Origin: Tyzzerella sp.
GTDB lineage: Bacteria; Bacillota; Clostridia; Lachnospirales; Lachnospiraceae
NCBI GenBank assembly: GCA_017410145.1
Contig: JAFQRJ010000029.1
Span: 1 to 44,401 of the forward strand
Direction: 5' to 3'
DNA length: 44,401 nucleotides
In this document: positions 2 through 43,015 of the stretch, piece after piece
Position numbering within the stretch: position 1 is the stretch's first letter
How the letters are laid out: each line of letters starts with the position of its first letter
Notes under the pieces: generated by a model
What the model saw: only the letters and a program-made list of their open reading frames with translations
What the model was told of the DNA's origin: nothing
The model's database searches: none
Made by a program: the position numbers and the translations under genes

Positions 2-3000
2 TTGGCAGGAGAAAAACTGAAATTACGTGTGGAATTCCGTGATGTCAATGATGCTAACACATCTGCGACAGTGACAGTAAAAGTAAACGACCATTGTTTG
101 TGGGATGCCATAACAGTAAAAAGAAGCAATGATAGTGCTGCGCTTTTAGGAAATCAAATGTATATGCGAAGCAATGTAACCATTCCAGAGAAACCATTAA
201 CGGAGATAAACTGGGATGATTTTAGCAATGTAGAATATGGAAAAACTTACACAAGTGCAACAGCATTGACATATAGTGGTATAAGTTTGAATGGTACTGC
301 ATTTGAAGATTATGTACAGTTCGCAGAAGGGGCGTCTCTCCTGTACGGAACATCAGGTAGTAATCATGGTATATCGATGGGAGTGAATACAAATGGAGAG
401 TTTTATGTCAAAGGACTTCAATATTGGTATAACTCCACTGTATATGGAAATGAGCAGAAGTGCACCGCAGTTGATCTTGGACTTGCTGGAGATACGTTGG
501 CAGGAGTAAAACTAAGATTGCGCGTCGAATTACATAATGTCAGTGATGATAACACATCTGCGACAGTGACAATTAAAGTAAATGACCATTGCTTGTGGGA
601 TGCCATAACGGTAAAAAGAAATGCTGAAGTAGCTGATCTTTTGGGAAATACTATCAATTTAGTCACAAGTAATAATACAACCGCACCTGTAACCATTCCA
701 GCAAAATCATTAAAAGAGATCGGTTGGTCTGATTTTGCAAAAGATGGTACAGCATTGAAAGATGGAGAAACCATAAGTAGTGAACGTTTAGTGACATACA
801 CAGGCACTGACTTGAGTAACACTGCGTTTGAAGGAGATGTGTCGCTCCCAGCAGGAAGCGGATTCCGTTATGCATCAGTTGACGGCTCTTATGGATTAGA
901 AATTAAAGAGTCTGAAGGAAACCTTTTAATTGGAGGAACCGAGGGAGTACAGCTTGGTGAAAGCAATGCCTATACTTGTACACCGGAAGAGTACAATGTA
1001 GGAACTTCGTTTGCAGATAAGCGGTTTACTATAAGAATAGAGTTCGTTTATCTGATTACAGATAGTGAAGCTAATAGTTCTAGTGCAAGAGTGAACATCT
1101 CTATTAACGGTATTGAGGTTGCGAAAGAAGTGACTTTAACAAGTGAAGTCGGTAACGAGAATTGTATGCTGAGTAATCATATTGGATTAGCAACAGGAAT
1201 CACAGTATATGATGTGGCACCGACTTGGGAAGAGGTTACCACAGGTCTTGAAGATGAAGTTCTTTCATGGGAAGAATTTGGTTATACTGGTGGGATAACG
1301 CCTGCAAGTATGGTAACGAAAACCGCAAGCCACTTAGATACGCTGAAGGGTTATATCTTTAATGGGAATATTATCATGCAGCCAGAGACGTATATTCGCT
1401 ATGGACGAGTGGGAACTAGCGGTCCATTTGTGCTTATACAGGTTGATAGCGAAGGCGTACTGTATGTTGGCACTTATAATAGTGGGATAACTAAAGTATA
1501 TACAGCAATTGCAAATCATCATAATTTGAATAGTTTTGTAAATACGGAATTCAACTTGAAGATTGTTCTCACATCAGAAGGTGAGATTAGTGTGTGGATT
1601 AATGACGTAATCATGGGAAATCCATTTAAGCCAGACATTACATGGGGAACTACGCTTGCGGCAAAAGGTGTTACGCCTATTTCTTTAAGAACAACAGTAC
1701 CGACAGGCTTAACGGAAATCAGTTTGGATGATTGGACGAAAGATGATGCGACGAGTACTGTTAGAGCCGATTTCGAACTGAGAAATAATGAACTGCGGGG
1801 GGCTCATAAAACACTTCCTAATTTGCTCAATACATCCTTGCATGAAGTTGTGAAATTTGTAGATACCAATGGTTCGGTAGGAAGTCATACATTCGTATAC
1901 GGTGGTTGTACAGGTCATGACTATCAGGGTATCAAGATCAGCATCAATGATGCTGGTCAGATGGGGATTCATTGTGTTGATATAATAAATGGGGCAGAAA
2001 CGAGCGTAGAGAAATTCACGATAGATCCAGTTAAGGCTGGTGTGGGAACCACATTCAGAGGTGAAGAAATTTCTTGGCAATTAGATACAGTGCGACTTGG
2101 AAACCACGTGTTGTTATATATGTCATTTAATGGACAACTATATAATAATGCCCCGTTTGTATTCCATGATTTTGCGGATTCTATGGTTGCTAACATGTAT
2201 TATACTTCACATGAAACAGCAGCAGAGGTCAATAACTGTTATGTAATACTTGGTGCTTCTGTAAAAGAATTACCGGTGTTGTATCACGATTTAGCAAAGG
2301 AAGCATATACCATTCCTGCATACAAGTCGGTAACGTTCTATGAGAAAGATGCGAACGGAGCGTGGGTTGAAGCTACGAAACCAGCCACACTAACAAAAAC
2401 CGGCGATTACAAATTGGCATTTAACGATGGTTTATCTGAATATACACAAATCATTTCATGTTATAACTACGCAACTGATGTGGATGTCGCTACGTTAGTA
2501 AGAAGCTTGAAAATGACAAATAATACAGAAGATGACTGGGCAAACTATGAAACACGTTTGTGTGACAAGAACTATGATGGCAAAGTAACATTGGATGATA
2601 TCAGCGATATTCGTTCTATGTTGTTAGGTACCTATGTGGCTGATACAGACGTTATGAAAATCTCCGGATTTTATAGTCCGACAGCTTCGTTGATTGAGGA
2701 CGAAACTTATGCGACCATCAAGGCGACCGGTGTAAATCATATCATTGAGTCTAATGTGTATTATACTGATGATGCAATAGCAAGATACAGAATCTATCAA
2801 GAATTGAGTTATGCACAAAAATATGGTTTGACTGTTACAGTAAACGACAAACGCTTGACAGACATTGGTGCCAGCGGCGGAACAGCAACCGCAGATGATG
2901 TAGATGCTTATGTGGCTAATTACAAGGATTACCAGTCCTTCGCAGGTTTATTTATTTTTGATGAGCCAAAAGCGGCAGATTATCCGAAAGGTATTTGGGA

Positions 3001-3988
3001 AGGCCACGATGAAATTGGTACGTATAGTTCCGTTGCACAGGCGATTGCTGATGCAGGGTACGAAGGATGGTCCAATGCGTTCACTGCAACCTCAGATATC
3101 TTGTTTGACGGTTACAACTATGATTATGCGGGTAGGATGAGATATGGATATTATAAGCATCTGAAAAATATGGTTCAAAGCTTTAAATTGAGCTTTATGA
3201 GTTCCACTCATTACCCATATTTAAATAATACAAGCGGCTCGGGTGAAACTATGTGGTGCTACTTTATGAATCTGGCGATAAATAAAGCTGTCGCAAAAGC
3301 TGAAGACGTAGAATTAAGAACCTTTGTACAGGGCATGGCCGCTGACAATAATGATATGAATGAAAACTATAGCGAAGCACAGCTTAAGTGGAACGCCAAT
3401 ATGAATCTTACCTTTGGAACGAGTGCACTTGAGTATTTCCCACTAGTTCAGCCTGGCAGCTTCCAAACCTATTCAGATGGAAGCTGTGCGAGTGGTCTTC
3501 TTGATAAAGACGGACAGCTGACCAAGTTTGGCGAATGGGCAACGAGTGTCAATAAGCAGGTTCAGGCAATTGATGGTATTTTGTTGAATGCGTCGCATGA
3601 AGGGTTTATGGCAATCGGCGGAAATTCGTCTTATGCAACAACGATTGCAAGAGAGAATGTTGAAGAAATTACGATGACAACCAATTGGCTTGGGACTAAA
3701 ACGGAAACCATCAGCCATACATTCATTGAGGAGGCTGACGGATATGAAGGTGCAAAAGTTATTGCAACGGATAGTACGCATGGCGCATTCGCAGGATGTT
3801 TTGAAATTTCAGCTGAAAAACATGCGATGTACATTGTGAACTTCAACGATGCAGGTGAAAATACAATTACTGTTGACTTGGGAGATGGTGTAACAGCTAC
3901 GGCAATTTATCAAGGTACAGAAACACCATATTCAGGTGACTTTAATATCACATTAGCAGCAGGTGAAGCTGTTTTAGTGGTATACTAA
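2..3988 (+). CDS. Large modular extracellular protein, 5' end missing; dockerin-like motif and TIM-barrel-like C-terminal region
   Basis: The frame is open at the window edge, so the true start and any signal peptide lie upstream; the 1328 visible residues are the C-terminal part. Residues 1-760 form about four and a half tandem beta-rich repeats of roughly 150-190 residues, each opening with a line like TEI-WDDF; the first two share the strings TSATVT and VNDHCLWDAITVKR. An Ig-like stretch follows (about 760-825), then a dockerin or EF-hand-like segment with a calcium-loop pattern at D855 (DKNYDGKVTLDD). Residues about 885-1230 look like a TIM-barrel glycoside hydrolase, with GLFIFDEP (D987-E988) as a possible acidic active-site strand. 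A beta domain ends the protein, and no C-terminal anchor is seen. The location beside a glycan operon suggests polysaccharide binding or attack. The family assignment is inferred, and a non-catalytic role is possible. Confidence 0.7.
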   Translation: MAGEKLKLRVEFRDVNDANTSATVTVKVNDHCLWDAITVKRSNDSAALLGNQMYMRSNVTIPEKPLTEINWDDFSNVEYGKTYTSATALTYSGISLNGTAFEDYVQFAEGASLLYGTSGSNHGISMGVNTNGEFYVKGLQYWYNSTVYGNEQKCTAVDLGLAGDTLAGVKLRLRVELHNVSDDNTSATVTIKVNDHCLWDAITVKRNAEVADLLGNTINLVTSNNTTAPVTIPAKSLKEIGWSDFAKDGTALKDGETISSERLVTYTGTDLSNTAFEGDVSLPAGSGFRYASVDGSYGLEIKESEGNLLIGGTEGVQLGESNAYTCTPEEYNVGTSFADKRFTIRIEFVYLITDSEANSSSARVNISINGIEVAKEVTLTSEVGNENCMLSNHIGLATGITVYDVAPTWEEVTTGLEDEVLSWEEFGYTGGITPASMVTKTASHLDTLKGYIFNGNIIMQPETYIRYGRVGTSGPFVLIQVDSEGVLYVGTYNSGITKVYTAIANHHNLNSFVNTEFNLKIVLTSEGEISVWINDVIMGNPFKPDITWGTTLAAKGVTPISLRTTVPTGLTEISLDDWTKDDATSTVRADFELRNNELRGAHKTLPNLLNTSLHEVVKFVDTNGSVGSHTFVYGGCTGHDYQGIKISINDAGQMGIHCVDIINGAETSVEKFTIDPVKAGVGTTFRGEEISWQLDTVRLGNHVLLYMSFNGQLYNNAPFVFHDFADSMVANMYYTSHETAAEVNNCYVILGASVKELPVLYHDLAKEAYTIPAYKSVTFYEKDANGAWVEATKPATLTKTGDYKLAFNDGLSEYTQIISCYNYATDVDVATLVRSLKMTNNTEDDWANYETRLCDKNYDGKVTLDDISDIRSMLLGTYVADTDVMKISGFYSPTASLIEDETYATIKATGVNHIIESNVYYTDDAIARYRIYQELSYAQKYGLTVTVNDKRLTDIGASGGTATADDVDAYVANYKDYQSFAGLFIFDEPKAADYPKGIWEGHDEIGTYSSVAQAIADAGYEGWSNAFTATSDILFDGYNYDYAGRMRYGYYKHLKNMVQSFKLSFMSSTHYPYLNNTSGSGETMWCYFMNLAINKAVAKAEDVELRTFVQGMAADNNDMNENYSEAQLKWNANMNLTFGTSALEYFPLVQPGSFQTYSDGSCASGLLDKDGQLTKFGEWATSVNKQVQAIDGILLNASHEGFMAIGGNSSYATTIARENVEEITMTTNWLGTKTETISHTFIEEADGYEGAKVIATDSTHGAFAGCFEISAEKHAMYIVNFNDAGENTITVDLGDGVTATAIYQGTETPYSGDFNITLAAGEAVLVVY

Positions 3989-4010
3989 TTTTAAATGAAT
4001 AAAATATAAG

Positions 4011-4040
4011 ATAGGGCTGTTTTTAAACAGCCCTATTTAG
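4011..4040 (+). terminator. Rho-independent terminator after the modular protein gene
   Basis: Near-perfect inverted repeat ATAGGGCTGTTT / AAACAGCCCTAT followed by TTT. It lies 22 bp after the stop of the large gene and just before the ribosome binding site of the next operon. It therefore separates the two units, or attenuates read-through into the operon. Confidence 0.8.
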
Positions 4041-4055
4041 CAAGGAGAAATTATT

Positions 4056-6023
4056 ATGTTGTTGTTTCATGGAAAACAGTGTGTGGATATATGCTTGAAA
4101 AACCATAATAAATATGTTCGTTTGGCTGTGGAAGACTTGAGAAGGGATTTTGAAAGGATAAGTTTAGGTTGTGTCAAACCACAGATTATAGAGGACGAAA
4201 GTGATTGTTGTATTGTGATTGAAGACAATACAACAGAAAACTGTGAGCCAATCAAGGATGAGGGATTTATCATTAAAAGCGAAGGAAACAAGATTCGTAT
4301 CATGGCAGACGGATACCTTGGGAGCATGTGGGGCATCTATACTTTTAGTGAGAAATACTTGGGTGTTGACCCTTGTTATTTGTTTAATGATATGGAAATA
4401 GAGAAGGTAGATTCATTAACCGTGCCGCCTATACATATAGAAGATAAGCCAAAGAGTTATGGTTTTCGAGGCGTATTTATCAACGACGAAGACCTACTTA
4501 CCGGTTGGAAAGATGGTGGTGGAATTCGTGACATCGATTCTCGTTTTTACACACTGACAGTAGATGAAATGGTTATGGATATGGTGGTGGAAACCATCCT
4601 GCGTTTGAAATTAAATCTGGTTATTCCGGCATCATTTCTTGATATTGATAATCCTCCGGAGAAGCTACTTGCTGATTGTGTGGCAAAACGTGGTATCTTT
4701 TTGTCGCAACATCATGTGGAGCCCCTCGGACTGTCATATTTTACACTGGAACGTTATTGCAAGAGATTTCAAAAGAAAGGCGAGTTTTCTTATATACAGT
4801 ATCCTGACTTAATGGAAGAAGCATGGTCTTATTATGCAAAAAAATGGGCGGAATATGATCATGTTGTGTGGCAAATAGGATTGCGAGGTAAATTAGATCG
4901 TCCTGTATGGGAGGAGGATAAACCGAACGAGGAAGAATTACGTGAATTTGGTGAATTTATTAGTTCGGCTATGGAGAAGCAACAACAAATCATCTTAGAG
5001 GCTACAGAAGGAAAGGCAAAATATTATACCAGTACTTTGTGGATGGAAGGCTCTGAGTTGGTGGCGAAAGGACTCTTACGTTTTCCGGAAAATACCATTA
5101 TGGTTTTTGCAGATACCGGTCCGAATCAGATGTACGGAGCCGATTATTATGATGTTCCAAGATTTGAGAGTATACCAAGTGGTATTTATTATCATTTGCA
5201 ATATAATTGCTGCGGCCCGCATCTTGCACCACAGACAGGCTTGGATAAATTGTATTACAATCTGAAACTTGCCATGGATAAGGGGGATGACGCATATTGC
5301 ATTATCAATGCATCTAATGTACGAGAGTTTGTCTTCGAGCTTCATGCATATGCTCAAATTTTGTGGGATGTAGATGGATTTTCAAAGGACGAATATTTGA
5401 AACAATATTGTTTAGCTTATGGTGAATTCGCAGAAAAAGCAGAAGCATTGATAAAAAGATATTATGATGATATGCCTGAGATAGATGTGCATTATCTTTC
5501 GAGACATCATGAAAAGTATTTCAATTATGACTTTGAACATGCTCCGAAAGGCATCAAGAATTTCATCGTAAAAGAAGGAAATATTTTAGAACATGGTCGG
5601 GATCTTCTTTCCAATTTTCATAATAGAATAGAAATTCCTTTGGATGAAGAATTTTATCATGCCCTTAAAAGTGTTCTTCCAAAATATATTGAAATTTGTG
5701 CCAAGTTGCGCCAATTAGCAGATGATTTGCCGGTGGCAATGAAAAAGCATGTGGAAGTGAAGTGGTTATGCTACGCCATGACACTGCGCTATATCTATGA
5801 GTGGTATGTCAATAGCTATGAAGCAAAGCAATATCGTCGCGAAGGTAATAGTGAACAGATGAAGAAATCTTTATATGCAGCTTGCGAAAGCCTGGAGGCA
5901 TATTTAGATTACAGAAAATGTGCTGAATACGGTATTTTCGAGAATTGGTATCGTGGTGATTTGAAAATGGATGTAAAACAAAGACTCTATGCTACCAGAA
6001 GTCTTTTGGGACAGACGGAGTAA
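4056..6023 (+). CDS. GH115-like alpha-glucuronidase, intracellular short form
   Basis: 655 residues, ATG preceded by AAGGAGAA. The layout matches GH115 alpha-glucuronidases: an N-terminal GH67/GH115-type alpha/beta domain (about 1-125), the landmark YGFRGVFINDED (135-146), a barrel region, and SGIYYHLQY (375-383) followed by a segment ending in FVFELHAYAQILWD. GH115 enzymes remove glucuronic acid or 4-O-methylglucuronic acid side chains from xylan-type chains. No signal peptide is visible, so it should act on imported oligosaccharides. It is shorter than the usual GH115 proteins and seems to lack their C-terminal beta domain. It opens an operon whose next genes catabolise glucuronate, which fits. 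I cannot name its catalytic residues with certainty; a divergent GH115 subfamily is the main alternative. Confidence 0.75.
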   Translation: MLLFHGKQCVDICLKNHNKYVRLAVEDLRRDFERISLGCVKPQIIEDESDCCIVIEDNTTENCEPIKDEGFIIKSEGNKIRIMADGYLGSMWGIYTFSEKYLGVDPCYLFNDMEIEKVDSLTVPPIHIEDKPKSYGFRGVFINDEDLLTGWKDGGGIRDIDSRFYTLTVDEMVMDMVVETILRLKLNLVIPASFLDIDNPPEKLLADCVAKRGIFLSQHHVEPLGLSYFTLERYCKRFQKKGEFSYIQYPDLMEEAWSYYAKKWAEYDHVVWQIGLRGKLDRPVWEEDKPNEEELREFGEFISSAMEKQQQIILEATEGKAKYYTSTLWMEGSELVAKGLLRFPENTIMVFADTGPNQMYGADYYDVPRFESIPSGIYYHLQYNCCGPHLAPQTGLDKLYYNLKLAMDKGDDAYCIINASNVREFVFELHAYAQILWDVDGFSKDEYLKQYCLAYGEFAEKAEALIKRYYDDMPEIDVHYLSRHHEKYFNYDFEHAPKGIKNFIVKEGNILEHGRDLLSNFHNRIEIPLDEEFYHALKSVLPKYIEICAKLRQLADDLPVAMKKHVEVKWLCYAMTLRYIYEWYVNSYEAKQYRREGNSEQMKKSLYAACESLEAYLDYRKCAEYGIFENWYRGDLKMDVKQRLYATRSLLGQTE

Positions 6024-21049: not shown

Positions 21050-22387
21050 ATGGATGAAGCACTCATTAAACGAGTACTGCCACATAGTATCGAAGCAGAA
21101 CAAGCGGTTATCGGTGCAATGCTGATGGACAAGGAAGCTATTTTGACATCTTCAGAGATTATATCCGGTGCTGATTTTTATCAGTCAGCATATGGTGTGG
21201 TTTTTGAAGTAATTGTGGAGATATATAATGAAGGTAAGCCGGTAGACCTTGTTACTTTGCAGAGTCGTCTGAAAGAAAAGGATGTGCCTGCAGAAATTAG
21301 CAGTTTGGAATTTGTGCGTGATTTAGTTGCAGCGGTTCCGACATCTGCCAATGTAAAGTACTACGCAGAAATTGTTGCTGATAAGGCAATGCTTCGCCGT
21401 TTGATTAAGTTAAACGAAGAAATTGAAAACATGTGCTATCTGGGGAAAGAACCGATGGAAGTAGTGTTGGAAACAACGGAGAAGAAGGTATTTGAATTGG
21501 TTCAAAAACGAAATACCGGAGACTTTGTCCCGATTAAGCAAGTTGTACTTAATGCCCTTGACAAGATAGAAATGGCATCTAAAAATGCAGGAAGTGTAAC
21601 AGGCATTCCAACCGGATTTTTAGATTTGGACTATAAGACTGCAGGTTTGCAAAATTCAGATTTGATTTTAGTTGCAGCCCGTCCTTCCATGGGAAAAACC
21701 GCGTTTGTGCTGAATATTGCTCAGCATGTTGCGTTTAAGGTTCAAAAATCCGTTGCAATTTTCAGTTTGGAAATGTCAAAAGAACAATTGGTTAACCGTT
21801 TGTTTGCATTGGAGGCACAAGTAGATGCACAATCCCTTCGTACCGGTAATCTTAAAGATTCCGACTGGGAAAAACTGATTGAAAGTGCAGGTACTATCGG
21901 AAAATCAAAATTGATGATTGACGATACGCCGGGAATTTCTATTTCTGAATTACGTTCCAAATGTCGTAAGATGAAATTGGAGCATGGTTTAGATCTGATT
22001 ATTATTGACTACCTTCAATTGATGTCGGGACGTGTAGGAGGAAGAAGCGAGTCAAGACAACAGGAGATTTCTGAAATTTCAAGAGCATTGAAAGGGGTTG
22101 CAAGGGAATTGAATGTGCCGGTTATCGCATTGTCACAGCTTAGCCGGGCAGTAGAACAACGTCCGGACCATCGTCCGATGATGTCTGACCTTCGTGAATC
22201 CGGAGCGATTGAACAGGATGCCGACGTGGTAATGTTCATATATCGTGATGATTACTATAATAAGGACACGGAAATGAAAAATGTGGCAGAGATTATTATC
22301 GGAAAACAGAGAAATGGTGCGATTGGAACCATTAATCTGACTTGGTTACCACAGTACACCAAATTTGCGAATTATTTAAAAGAGTAA
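21050..22387 (+). CDS. dnaB: Replicative DNA helicase DnaB
   Basis: 445 residues, standard size, ATG behind AGGAGGCAG. N-terminal primase-interacting domain (PHSIEAEQAVIGAML, 11-25), linker, then the RecA-type motor with Walker A RPSMGKT (211-217), LIIIDYLQLMSG as Walker B/H3 and the late SDLRESGAIEQDADVV block. It is the hexameric 5'-3' helicase of the replication fork. No intein is present. It is the last gene of gdpP-rplI-dnaB and is followed by a terminator. Confidence 0.97.
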   Translation: MDEALIKRVLPHSIEAEQAVIGAMLMDKEAILTSSEIISGADFYQSAYGVVFEVIVEIYNEGKPVDLVTLQSRLKEKDVPAEISSLEFVRDLVAAVPTSANVKYYAEIVADKAMLRRLIKLNEEIENMCYLGKEPMEVVLETTEKKVFELVQKRNTGDFVPIKQVVLNALDKIEMASKNAGSVTGIPTGFLDLDYKTAGLQNSDLILVAARPSMGKTAFVLNIAQHVAFKVQKSVAIFSLEMSKEQLVNRLFALEAQVDAQSLRTGNLKDSDWEKLIESAGTIGKSKLMIDDTPGISISELRSKCRKMKLEHGLDLIIIDYLQLMSGRVGGRSESRQQEISEISRALKGVARELNVPVIALSQLSRAVEQRPDHRPMMSDLRESGAIEQDADVVMFIYRDDYYNKDTEMKNVAEIIIGKQRNGAIGTINLTWLPQYTKFANYLKE

Positions 22388-22460: not shown

Positions 22461-22775
22461 AGGGGGATTTTCTATATACATAATAATTTGCATGCCATAC
22501 CCTGCAGGATTGTTGTAACGGGTTAAAGGTAGGCGGTTTTTCTATATGGAAAATAATTGCAAAGATATATCCTGTTTTACTTTTCAAAAAGGGTATGGTA
22601 GAGGACTTTTCTCCCATATAGAAAGTTTGCCAACTCCCGCCAAACTCCTCTTGTAAAATGCGGGTATAGTGCAGGGGTATTGAGCCATATAGAAAATCTA
22701 GCCCATAAATTATCTTTCTTCAGAGAGCCTGTGGGCATGACGAGTAAGAAATTTCCTATGTACCCAAGACACCAA
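22461..22775. repeat. Modular intergenic repeat, copy A (inverted relative to copy B)
   Basis: Non-coding stretch between dnaB and the MerR-like gene. Its reverse complement matches 24281-24597 along almost all its length; 22525-22572 is a 48-bp perfect match to the reverse complement of 24485-24532. Inside, two short motifs alternate in modules mostly about 70 bp long: a TTTCTATATGG / CCATATAGAAA motif and an ATACCC / GGGTAT motif (near 22495, 22590, 22661 and 22731). Short open frames here carry no recognisable protein and mirror those in copy B. No coding function is supported. Confidence 0.85.
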
Positions 22776-22811
22776 TTAGCGCCACAGAAAGTTAGATAAC
22801 AAATGCTGTTG

Positions 22812-22849
22812 AAAAGGATAGGGGACTGCTTAAGCAATCCCCCTATCCT
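22812..22849 (-). terminator. Terminator of the MerR-like gene
   Basis: On the minus strand, GGATAGGGGGATTGC pairs with GCAGTCCCCTATCC, then TTTTC. The stop codon of the gene lies inside the 5' arm. The hairpin faces copy A of the repeat and prevents transcription into it. Confidence 0.8.
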
Positions 22850-23340
22850 TCAAATATTTTTCTTAATTGTCTTAAAGGTGTTGACCTTGCGTATTCTTTA
22901 CGATATGATTGTTGTTGACGAATCAAATAATCAAGTTTCTTATATCGTTCTTCCTCCTGCAAATCTTGCGCCTGGAACAAATATCCCATTTCCCTTATTA
23001 TAGCTTCTTGCAATATCTGATTGTTTTCAAGTAGGGCCATCTGCAATTCTGACATATGTTTTTGTTCCTCTTTTTCTTTATTCATCTTGCGTTCATTTGC
23101 TTTTGCTTTGGCCTTTAGCATATCAGGAATTAAATCCTTTAACTCTTTCAAAAGCATACCTTGTTCTTTGAGTTCTTTAATGCAGTTAAACAACCGCACA
23201 TCTTCTTCTGTATAGTAACGATGCCCCATTTCAGTACGTCCAATTTTAAGTCCCAATTCTTCCTCCCAATGCCTAAGAACATGAGTTTCCACATTGACAC
23301 GTTTGGAAGCTTCTGAAATCATGTAACGAACTTCGCCCAT
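22843..23340 (-). CDS. MerR-like helix-turn-helix regulator with coiled coil
   Basis: 165 residues, ATG preceded by AGGGGGCG. The N-terminus (about 6-70) is a MerR-type winged helix: MISEASKRVNVETHVLRHWE, then EMGHRYYTEEDVRLF. After residue 70 come charged helices predicted to form a coiled coil (KAKANERKMNKEKEEQ) and no effector-binding domain. It may be a DNA-binding architectural or RacA-like regulator; no metal or drug ligand cysteines are present. It is transcribed away from the divergent nuclease-like gene, sharing a 131-bp spacer, and lies between the two inverted repeat copies. Whether it belongs to that element or is an ordinary neighbour of dnaB cannot be told from one genome. Confidence 0.8.
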   Translation of the reverse strand: MGEVRYMISEASKRVNVETHVLRHWEEELGLKIGRTEMGHRYYTEEDVRLFNCIKELKEQGMLLKELKDLIPDMLKAKAKANERKMNKEKEEQKHMSELQMALLENNQILQEAIIREMGYLFQAQDLQEEERYKKLDYLIRQQQSYRKEYARSTPLRQLRKIFEG

Positions 23341-23471
23341 ACAAAACGCCCCCTATAATCATATTTTTGATTTATGTATCGTATATATCATAGCATAGGG
23401 TGGAAACTTTGTCTCAAAAAATCAACCATCAAAGTTCGACAAAAACTATATTTATTCAAAGGAGAAAATTT

Positions 23472-24251
23472 ATGATTCATGAAAAGATATTAAAAGAAAG
23501 CCAACGGCTGGATGAACAAATTCAAACAATTCAATCAAAACTAGATACATTACCTACTGGGAAACTAATATGTGCCTCTAATGGAAAGGGCTACAAATGG
23601 TATCGTAGTGATGGTCACACCCCTACTTATCTTTCAAAGAAGGACAGAAACCTTGCAGAGAAACTTGCTTACAAGAAATATTTATCACTTCATTTAAGGA
23701 ATCTTCTTCATGAGAAAAATGCCATTAACTTTTATCTTAGACACCATGACATAAATGCATATCAAGCAGAACAATCATTCATTAACTCCCCAAAATATCG
23801 AGATTTACTGGCTCCTTTTTTTACTCCACTATCAAAGGAAATGCAAGATTGGATGGAAGCTCCGTATGAAAAATGCAATAATCACCCAGAAAATTTAAAA
23901 ATTCAATCCTATTCGGGAAATCTAGTCCGCTCAAAATCGGAGATGCTTATTGACATGTTTCTTTTCAAGAACTGTATCCCCTTTCGTTATGAATCTCTTT
24001 TGCAATTAGATGAAATCAACATGTATCCGGATTTCACGATTCGCCATCCTAAAACGGGAGATGTTTACTATTGGGAGCATTTTGGAATGATGGATGATCC
24101 TACATATAGTAAAAACGTATGTCTTAAACTCGAAAATTACATTTCACATGGTATCATCCCATCTATTCAATTAATAACAACTTATGAAACCCTAAAAGAA
24201 CCTTTGTGTGCAGAGACAATCGAGAAAATTGTTGAACATTATTTTTTATAA
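23472..24251 (+). CDS. Uncharacterised PD-(D/E)XK-type nuclease-like protein
   Basis: 259 residues from ATG 23472 behind AAAGGAGAAAATT; a GTG 24 codons upstream in frame has no ribosome binding site. No named family is recognised. Residues 1-95 hold a helical coiled-coil-like region around a conserved-looking KLICASNGKGYKWY and a basic LSKKDRNLAEKLAYKKY string. The C-terminal half looks like a restriction-endonuclease-fold core: E157 in VRSKSEMLID, FRYE (171-174), D187 in YPDF, and E202 in YYWEHFG, the variant active site in which the usual lysine of (D/E)XK is replaced and may be supplied by K214 or K219 in the next helix. HGIIP and LITTYE follow. It is bracketed by inverted repeat copies A and B. 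The nuclease call is by motif only; activity is unproven. Confidence 0.65.
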   Translation: MIHEKILKESQRLDEQIQTIQSKLDTLPTGKLICASNGKGYKWYRSDGHTPTYLSKKDRNLAEKLAYKKYLSLHLRNLLHEKNAINFYLRHHDINAYQAEQSFINSPKYRDLLAPFFTPLSKEMQDWMEAPYEKCNNHPENLKIQSYSGNLVRSKSEMLIDMFLFKNCIPFRYESLLQLDEINMYPDFTIRHPKTGDVYYWEHFGMMDDPTYSKNVCLKLENYISHGIIPSIQLITTYETLKEPLCAETIEKIVEHYFL

Positions 24252-24280
24252 GTATTTCTGTAGTTTTAATTGTAAATGAG

Positions 24281-24597
24281 TTGGTGTCTTGGGCAGATAG
24301 AAAATTTCTTGCTCGTCATACCCGCAGGTTCTCTGAAGAAAGATAATTTATGGGCTGGAATTTCTATATGGCTCAAAACCTCTGCACCATACCCACATTT
24401 TACAAGAAGAGTTTGGCTGGAGTAGTCGAACTCTCCATATGGGAAAAAAGTCCTCTACCATACCCTTTTATGAGAAGTAAGACGGGATATATCTTTGCAA
24501 TTATTTTCCATATAGAAAAACCGCCTACCTTTTAACCGATTCCAACAATCCTGTCGGGTATGACAATTGAATTTTTATGTATATAGAAAATCCTCCC
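24281..24597. repeat. Modular intergenic repeat, copy B (inverted relative to copy A)
   Basis: Begins with TTGGTGTCTTGGG, which is also the inner boundary of copy A read in reverse. It contains four ATACCC-type motifs (near 24318, 24388, 24457 and, reversed, 24556) and five TATAGAAA-type motifs (near 24295, 24361, 24433, 24508 and 24579), giving a period of about 65-75 bp. It starts 30 bp after the nuclease-like gene. Copies A and B together form a large inverted repeat with an inner segment of about 1.5 kb. Confidence 0.85.
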
Positions 24598-24649
24598 GCA
24601 CCACCGGCAATCCACTGAAAATCCTCCCGCACCACCGGCAATCCACTGA
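24588..24649. repeat. 31-bp tandem duplication
   Basis: Two perfect adjacent copies of a 31-base unit (24588-24618 and 24619-24649), each containing CCTCCCGCACCACCGGCAAT, GC-richer than its surroundings. The first unit overlaps the outer end of repeat copy B. Confidence 0.95.
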
Positions 24650-28499: not shown

Positions 28500-28775
28500 A
28501 TGGGTATATGGGAGATTTCTTGCGTACTATACCCGCAAATTTACTTATTTCTGTAAAAATCATCTTGATTTTTCTATATGTGAAATTATTGTATTGAAAT
28601 ACCCTGTTTTTATGCAAGAAATGCTTGTTTTCGTGTATGAAAAACCTGATTTCAATCAAAACAAGGGTACTGTGAATGAGTTTTTTGACATATAGAAAAT
28701 TAGGTTGGTAAAAGAATATAAATTTATTAAAAATAGGGTATGGGAGACAAACATTTTGGTATATAGAATAATATA
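28500..28775. repeat. Modular intergenic repeat, copy C (diverged)
   Basis: The 374-bp gap between the radical-domain gene and the activase gene holds no supported gene. It shows the same two alternating motifs as copies A and B: ATACCC or GGGTA near 28532, 28598, 28663 and 28735, and TTTCTATATG / CATATAGAAA near 28570, 28690 and 28760, spaced about 65-70 bp. Near 28505, TATGGGAGATTTCTTGCG-then-TATACCCGCA parallels the start of copy B. Overall identity to A and B is low outside the motifs. A short reverse open frame here has no protein resemblance. Confidence 0.65.
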
Positions 28776-42808: not shown

Positions 42809-43015
42809 GCTGTGACAAGATAGCGATGAAGCGAGAGGTTGCTACCCACCGTGGTAGGTATTCCGTGGAGCGAATGTCAAGTTAGGAAACTGGCGACAAG
42901 TCACTGTACGAATCTATAACAGCCGATGAGAAACGGTAACAACGTGTGAGTACTCACGACACACACGGGAGAGTGTACAGTCACCACTTGTCGTACTAAA
43001 ACCCAAGTACGAAAA
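42809..43015 (+). ncRNA. Structured leader of the S10 operon (ribosomal protein leader, S10-Clostridia-like)
   Basis: About 200 transcribed bases between the promoter and rpsJ. GCTGT (42809-42813) can close with ACAGC (42919-42923) around a region holding GAAGCGAGAGGTTGC, CCACCGTGGTAGG and AACTGGCGACAAG. A second part has GTGTGAGTACTCACGACACAC and a GTCGTACT / AAGTACGA hairpin directly before the ribosome binding site AAAAGGAGG. Such leaders are bound by a ribosomal protein of the operon to repress it. The link to the named Rfam family is from memory of its context and not verified. Confidence 0.6.

Follow-up and report, generated by a model that had tools for sequence, protein, structure and literature searches.

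A predicted PD-(D/E)XK-type nuclease gene family of Lachnospiraceae recurs with hairpin repeat arrays, possibly as a REP/RAYT-like partnership

Two long inverted repeats bracket a MerR-type gene and a nuclease-like gene in a 44,401-nucleotide stretch of Tyzzerella sp. DNA (the window), which raises the question whether repeats and genes form a unit and, if so, of which kind. Inverted repeats of about 315 bp with a 48-bp perfect block had been claimed from the sequence, and both are there: blastn aligned 22462-22775 with 24281-24596 as an inverted pair, 88% identical over 316 columns with E values around 1e-109 to 1e-111, far above chance level, and the pairwise alignment of the arms places the perfect block at about 22525-22572 of the left arm. 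Both arms are built as short arrays of ~34-bp modules in either orientation, like-oriented neighbours lying 70-71 bp apart, with two modules one way, two the opposite way and then a self-paired module that was assigned by eye. A module ends in the half-site GGGTAT on one side and in TATAGAAA on the other. The left arm (22462-22775, no strand assigned) fills the gap between dnaB and MerR, a gap without array in the congeners G003, G006 and G007, and consists of module 1 (22469-22502, minus strand, GGGTATGG...TATAGAAA), module 2 (22539-22572, minus), module 3 (22591-22624, plus), module 4 (22662-22695, plus) and module 5 (22733-22765, plus), the last being of the self-paired type GGGCAT...TACCC, recognised by eye and having a counterpart in the right arm. 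The right arm (24281-24596, no strand assigned) is the inverted copy in the gap between the nuclease-like gene and PBP, with modules 4' (24361-24394, minus), 3' (24432-24465, minus), 2' (24485-24518, plus) and 1' (24556-24589, plus). A perfect 31-bp tandem duplication (24586-24647) abuts the right arm and starts with the GAAA of its terminal half-site.

Between the arms lie, as described in the original prediction, two divergent genes, one for a MerR-family regulator (22843-23340, minus strand; PF13411, E 3e-21) and one for a PD-(D/E)XK-like protein (plus strand), and the arms occupy the two convergent gene gaps on either side of this pair. The gene order GdpP-rplI-dnaB-MerR-PBP-PFL is found in G003, G006 and G007, in which MerR is the ancestral neighbour of dnaB, the gaps measure about 48-81 and 105-144 bp, and neither repeat nor nuclease is present in the dnaB-MerR-PBP stretch; G003 and G006 nevertheless carry nuclease genes elsewhere in the genome. 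These three congeners are explained most simply if MerR acquired new flanking DNA to its left and right in the window. Furthermore, no MerR match at E 1e-3 was found in the loci of the best 80 relatives of the nuclease-like protein, some of these loci ending at contig ends. Gene order marks MerR as an old gene of the host that came to lie between the arms, a bystander outside any unit; its proposed membership of a mobile unit did not hold, and the congener synteny together with the 80 loci without a MerR match speaks against it as a partner of the repeats.

G002 shows the same bracket: one array separates dnaB from MerR, the nuclease copy is broken, and a second array adjoins PBP on another contig; we infer that its dnaB/MerR-side and PBP-side contigs join into one bracket. 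This second case bears on the suggestion that a segment of about 1.5 kb is invertible, for which the inverted arms around two divergent genes would be a fitting layout. MerR, however, faces dnaB identically in both bracketed genomes (the window and G002) and in the three unbracketed congeners, so that no second orientation was seen (2/2 bracketed genomes), and no recombinase-like ORF lies between the arms; we rejected inversion as very improbable.

Nuclease genes flanked by inverted repeat copies were found in the window, in G002, in G004, where the copies are full elements, and at contig C50 of G003. The G003 C50 bracket encloses an internally deleted nuclease and, in MerR's place, a host gene that by eye resembles a phosphoglucosamine mutase; its arms and those of G002, like those of the window, sit in convergent gaps on either side of a divergent host-gene/nuclease pair. 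The two arms share 88% identity in the window and, at the G002 locus, 83%, and blastn between the two loci aligned only 14-16-bp pieces, a pattern of arms alike within each locus and not between loci that would fit local copying or gene conversion. The two arms of G004 are 63% alike against a mean of 62% among its other copies, and we therefore rejected the idea that they resemble each other more than other copies do. By plain blastn, bracketing arms were detected in 4 of the 80 relatives L007-L086 (L013, L014, L024 and L077) and around the window genome's own paralogue L004; L007, taken as the G004 locus with its 63% arms, was not picked up in this way. At C15 of the window's own genome (L127, 4930-6377), inverted arms that match less well (75% identity along 85 columns) and carry a different motif enclose a nuclease paralogue and a gene judged by eye to be ClpP-like.

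The nuclease-like gene (23472-24251, plus strand; likely ATG at 23472, stop at 24251) encodes 259 amino acids with an N-terminal small beta-sheet and long helices and a C-terminal domain of PD-(D/E)XK type. The conserved acidic pattern of a PD-(D/E)XK active site is present in all 31 aligned members, with K155, E157, P186-D187 and E202 invariant (31/31). The position two residues past E202, usually K, is F204, and the lysine of the putative active site may come from K155. A confident structure model (pLDDT 90.8, pTM 0.58) gave Foldseek matches that were weak (best E 6e-3, low TM), the best of them including Bax1, MunI, DrdV, Can2, Card1, BamHI and R2 endonuclease, and also prefoldins and Drosha; by fold class we take these to be largely PD-(D/E)XK nucleases. 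The N-terminal part is modelled as a three-strand sheet with helices; its fold search against solved structures returned nothing usable (best E 0.64), and neither solved structures nor Pfam, NCBIfam and PHROGs offered a convincing relative for it; the whole protein likewise found no convincing family name in Pfam, NCBIfam and PHROGs. Residues 139-257 match the last ~120 residues of the PADLOC PDC-S68 models, as do all 31 aligned members; these models are ~1200-1270 positions long, compared with 259 residues here, and the N-terminal part is unmatched. No paper on PDC-S68 was found in the PMC literature.

Relatives were confirmed in 231 of 253 candidate stretches, and the best 80 of the 231, which were analysed, are mostly labelled Lachnospiraceae or its genera, some only Clostridia or 'bacterium', and one Paenibacillaceae. 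Of 150 genomes drawn from the family, 46 contain a nuclease match, the window's genome included, although in G035, G082 and G143 only inside a longer protein. A plasmid or phage origin was rejected: of eight plasmid records matching the protein none does so over more than 80% of its length, the plasmid relatives of the C-terminal domain being annotated mostly as AAA family ATPases and once as a RecQ helicase, and of three phage-labelled records one reaches 95% coverage, at 26% identity. Among 84 listed family matches, 17 start less than 1 kb from the first base of the contig (a raw count without control), as if assemblies break in arrays.

The nuclease gene family recurs with repeat arrays. 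We compared 82 loci (the 80 relatives plus two from the window's genome, namely the window locus and a paralogue; near-duplicates, for example L043/L044, were kept in) and found a 10-mer occurring at least three times in 29/72 upstream and 26/77 downstream 800-bp windows, versus 20/522 distant ones; with an intergenic-centred control, repeats were seen in 42/103 windows near the gene versus 4/57 far from it. Repetition of a 10-mer at least three times at a period of at least 40 within 800 bp was observed at 57 of the 82 loci, leaving 25 without. The array motif varies by locus (CTATATGCCC, TATGTCCAAA, TATACCCCGCC and others), yet a core ATRYCC is among the top eight 10-mers in 27 of the 57 loci, compared with a background of 2.1% per flank 10-mer and with 1 of 13 repeat-bearing distant windows; the top 10-mers of the window lack this core, which places it outside the 27. 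This recurrent association of array and gene speaks against a chance insertion of a common repeat. Spacings between repeats cluster near 42, 52, 62, 71, 82, 92 and 104 bp, with a best period of 10.25-10.3 bp that none of 5000 uniform random sets equalled in regularity, and such helical phasing suggests a protein on one face of double-stranded DNA.

Copies away from the gene were sought in ten genomes of the genus. A search with the module pattern gave 12 matches in G004 and none for the reversed control; at least one of the 12 (C6:254) looks coding, and some matches in other genomes look random. Ten G004 copies align as an element of ~167 nt made up of two hairpins, TTTCTATAT...ATACCC / GGGTAT...TATAGAAA followed by GGGTAT...TATATACCC. 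A two-hairpin covariance model of this element, R1, yielded at least 122 matches at E 0.01 or better, merged to 81 places: at least 42 in G003, 23 in G004, 10 in G000 and 6 in G002. Since scoring covered 150 candidates in each genome, out of 2245-5136, these counts are lower bounds, and the absence of a match among the 150 in G001 and G005-G009 is not final; completeness is 68% for G000 and 65% for G004. The six matches of G002 are weak (E 1e-5 to 1.6e-3), none of them at its arrays by dnaB and PBP, and several in G000 are weak too. At G000:C5:45615-45839 and 21561-21692, modules of the type seen in the window form two arrays that stand alone, with no nuclease match in the surrounding sequence analysed, and in two further genomes arrays recur without a nuclease match within about 1.5 kb.

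Nuclease matches occur in G000, G002, G003, G004 and G006, and as a fragment only in G007. All four R1-bearing genomes carry one: R1 matches are present in 4/5 genomes with more than a nuclease fragment versus 0/5 without, G007 counted among the latter (one-sided p 0.024, in a small sample with 150 candidates scored per genome). Three of the six nuclease loci of G003 (C50, C51 and C54) adjoin an R1 place, for which the rough chance is 2e-4, and none was found beside the copies at G006, at C21, C23 and C19 of G003, or at C15 of G000. The array at G006 C25 stands beside its own gene, with no other copy in the ten genomes. The nuclease tree unites the copies of the window, G004, G003 C51, G003 C21 and G006 C25 (support 98/97, the bootstrap not having settled), yet those of G003 C21 and G006 C25 have no adjoining R1 match. 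Taken with the flank enrichment, the presence of a nuclease match in every genome with R1 matches among the candidates scored supports the expectation that repeat copies cluster with homologues of the nuclease-like gene.

Empty sites in related genomes, asked for by the original prediction, were found as well. A solitary element of the same repeat family (28502-28698, minus strand) lies in the window between a gene that by eye resembles a glycyl radical cofactor gene and a pflA-like gene, and all seven congeners examined (G002 and G008 were not covered) have a gap of 21-183 bp there, with no element and no R1 match in those stretches. With 7/7 congeners empty, the element would most simply be a gain in the window. 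By eye, target duplications were recognised neither at G004 elements nor at G003 palindromes.

For placement, 63 of the 81 R1 places, merged by hand, were used: 56 of the 63 are intergenic, versus 213 of 2172 random positions (9.8%), and the neighbouring genes are convergent at 31 places, co-directional at 26 and divergent at 3, the remaining 3 being unassigned. This distribution bears on the reading that the protein is a sequence-specific DNA binder, be it for regulation, chromosome organisation or defence, with the arrays as operators that spread by recombination and not through catalysis by the protein. The helical register of the spacings and the relation of the C-terminal domain to the PADLOC defence candidate PDC-S68 (31/31) would agree with such a role; divergent-gene placement in only 3/63, however, is unlike operators, and the presumed active-site acidic residues are invariant, so that we consider it unlikely.

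The hairpins could also act as RNA, being transcribed at gene 3' ends and processed by the protein as an RNase. They are long and strong (z -8.7 and -7.4 for two copies folded), compensatory changes number 14 cells versus 5.3 in shuffles when the structure is taken from the same alignment, and the element is on the genes' strand in 14 of 17 scored co-directional cases (9 of 26 rows were dropped by eye). An RNA role is nevertheless quite improbable in our judgement, as G-U versus A-C in fixed register (31 versus 19, p 0.12) shows no clear excess, the 10-bp phasing points to double-stranded DNA and no Rfam family is found in the arms. A known RNA family in the arms was rejected in the Rfam search: nothing reached the gathering score, one loose snoRNA-family match lying far below it.

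The main rival is hitchhiking, in which an unrelated transposase of DDE or Y1 type mobilises the repeats as ordinary MITEs, while the nuclease gene travels as cargo or is a neighbour with a preference for the same sites. MITEs are small non-coding dispersed palindromic DNA, and in this the element resembles them; it differs in the unlike ends (TTTC and CCC) of the G004 copies, and the search for a parent covered Y1 transposases. Large palindromes in G003 feed this rival. Palindromes or inverted arms of about 0.37-1.06 kb, whose ends include CTGTTGCAAAATAAA and CAATGTCATTAAGTTAAGG, hold R1-type matches at L233, L235, L236, L238, L241, L243-L248 and L250, and about 17 of the 63 R1 places, in 12 G003 loci, lie inside or between the arms of such larger palindromes. 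Five of them were compared with other loci, each having 85-92% identical matches elsewhere, and those of 0.4-1.08 kb count in favour of hitchhiking. They are possibly IS-derived or REPIN-like doublets, and another transposase may have moved them and spread copies. Y1 transposase matches, too, are present in 8 of the 10 genus genomes. Against this, G005 has four Y1 matches and no R1 match among the candidates scored, whereas G004 has 23 R1 places and no Y1 match (at 65% completeness); as Y1 genes do not track the elements in the genus, a Y1 transposase was rejected as the mover. Arrays are moreover enriched beside the nuclease gene, and their motifs vary by nuclease locus, yet often keep a common half-site core (27/57). 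Overall, we deem hitchhiking rather unlikely.

The explanation we favour, and hold to be somewhat on the probable side, is a REP/RAYT-like partnership in which the hairpin repeat is paired with the PD-(D/E)XK-type gene beside it in place of a Y1 transposase. The predicted RAYT/REP-like logic is supported in that arrays cluster with the nuclease family and copies are dispersed between genes. PMC2817692 describes RAYT genes flanked by inverted short hairpin repeats whose number tracks the gene and whose copies may concentrate nearby, and REPs as solitary and mosaic copies between genes; REPINs are treated in PMC3116915. The present system is alike in the gene bracketed by inverted hairpin repeats, in solitary and mosaic intergenic copies, in a copy number that follows the gene and in copies that can gather near it. 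It differs in the element, which either measures ~167 nt and has two hairpins or consists of tandem modules spaced at 52/62/71/82 bp, and in number, tens of places per genome as a lower bound, whereas REPs usually exceed 100 per genome (PMC2817692). The GTAG/CGTC-type tag at one end of REP palindromes, mentioned in PMC3733652, is absent: the conserved ends of the ten G004 copies are TTTCTATAT and TATATACCC.

The protein itself is of PD-(D/E)XK type and not a Y1/HUH transposase, and no Y1_Tnp match is listed for it or its 30 aligned relatives; with this difference in enzyme class, the nuclease-repeat system is no RAYT. To our knowledge, the known REP systems all rest on Y1 transposases (RAYT). 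Other PD-(D/E)XK proteins are used in transposition, among them TnsA of Tn7, which the protein resembles in a (here predicted) nuclease fold at repeated binding sites near element ends; unlike Tn7, no DDE partner, fixed terminal repeats or target duplication were seen here.

By analogy with RAYT/REP proposals (PMC2817692), we infer that the protein may bind, cut and copy the repeats. It would bind paired half-sites, which at many loci share the core ATRYCC, either as a dimer or in a row on one DNA face, and would cut or nick DNA there; host repair or template switching would then copy the element into nearby, sometimes distant, gene 3' ends. A bolder version has a little less than an even chance, namely that this is an independent, Y1-free, REP-like selfish partnership, in which a PD-(D/E)XK nuclease widespread among Lachnospiraceae would recognise inverted half-sites in helical phase and, by cleaving DNA that the host then repairs, multiply its own hairpin arrays and spread them to the 3' ends of genes, with one motif per subfamily. 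The titles and abstract openings of the PMC matches listed describe no such nuclease-repeat system, bioRxiv and most subscription papers being outside this scope. If true, an unrelated nuclease family in gut bacteria would share the layout of a gene plus dispersed repeats, meaning that this lifestyle evolves repeatedly; an unnamed family present in 46/150 sampled Lachnospiraceae genomes would gain a function, and testable protein-motif pairs would become available. The arrays lie largely at gene ends and may affect transcription 3' ends.

Elsewhere in the window, an S10-Clostridia ribosomal protein leader (Rfam RF03136) is present at 42818-42899.
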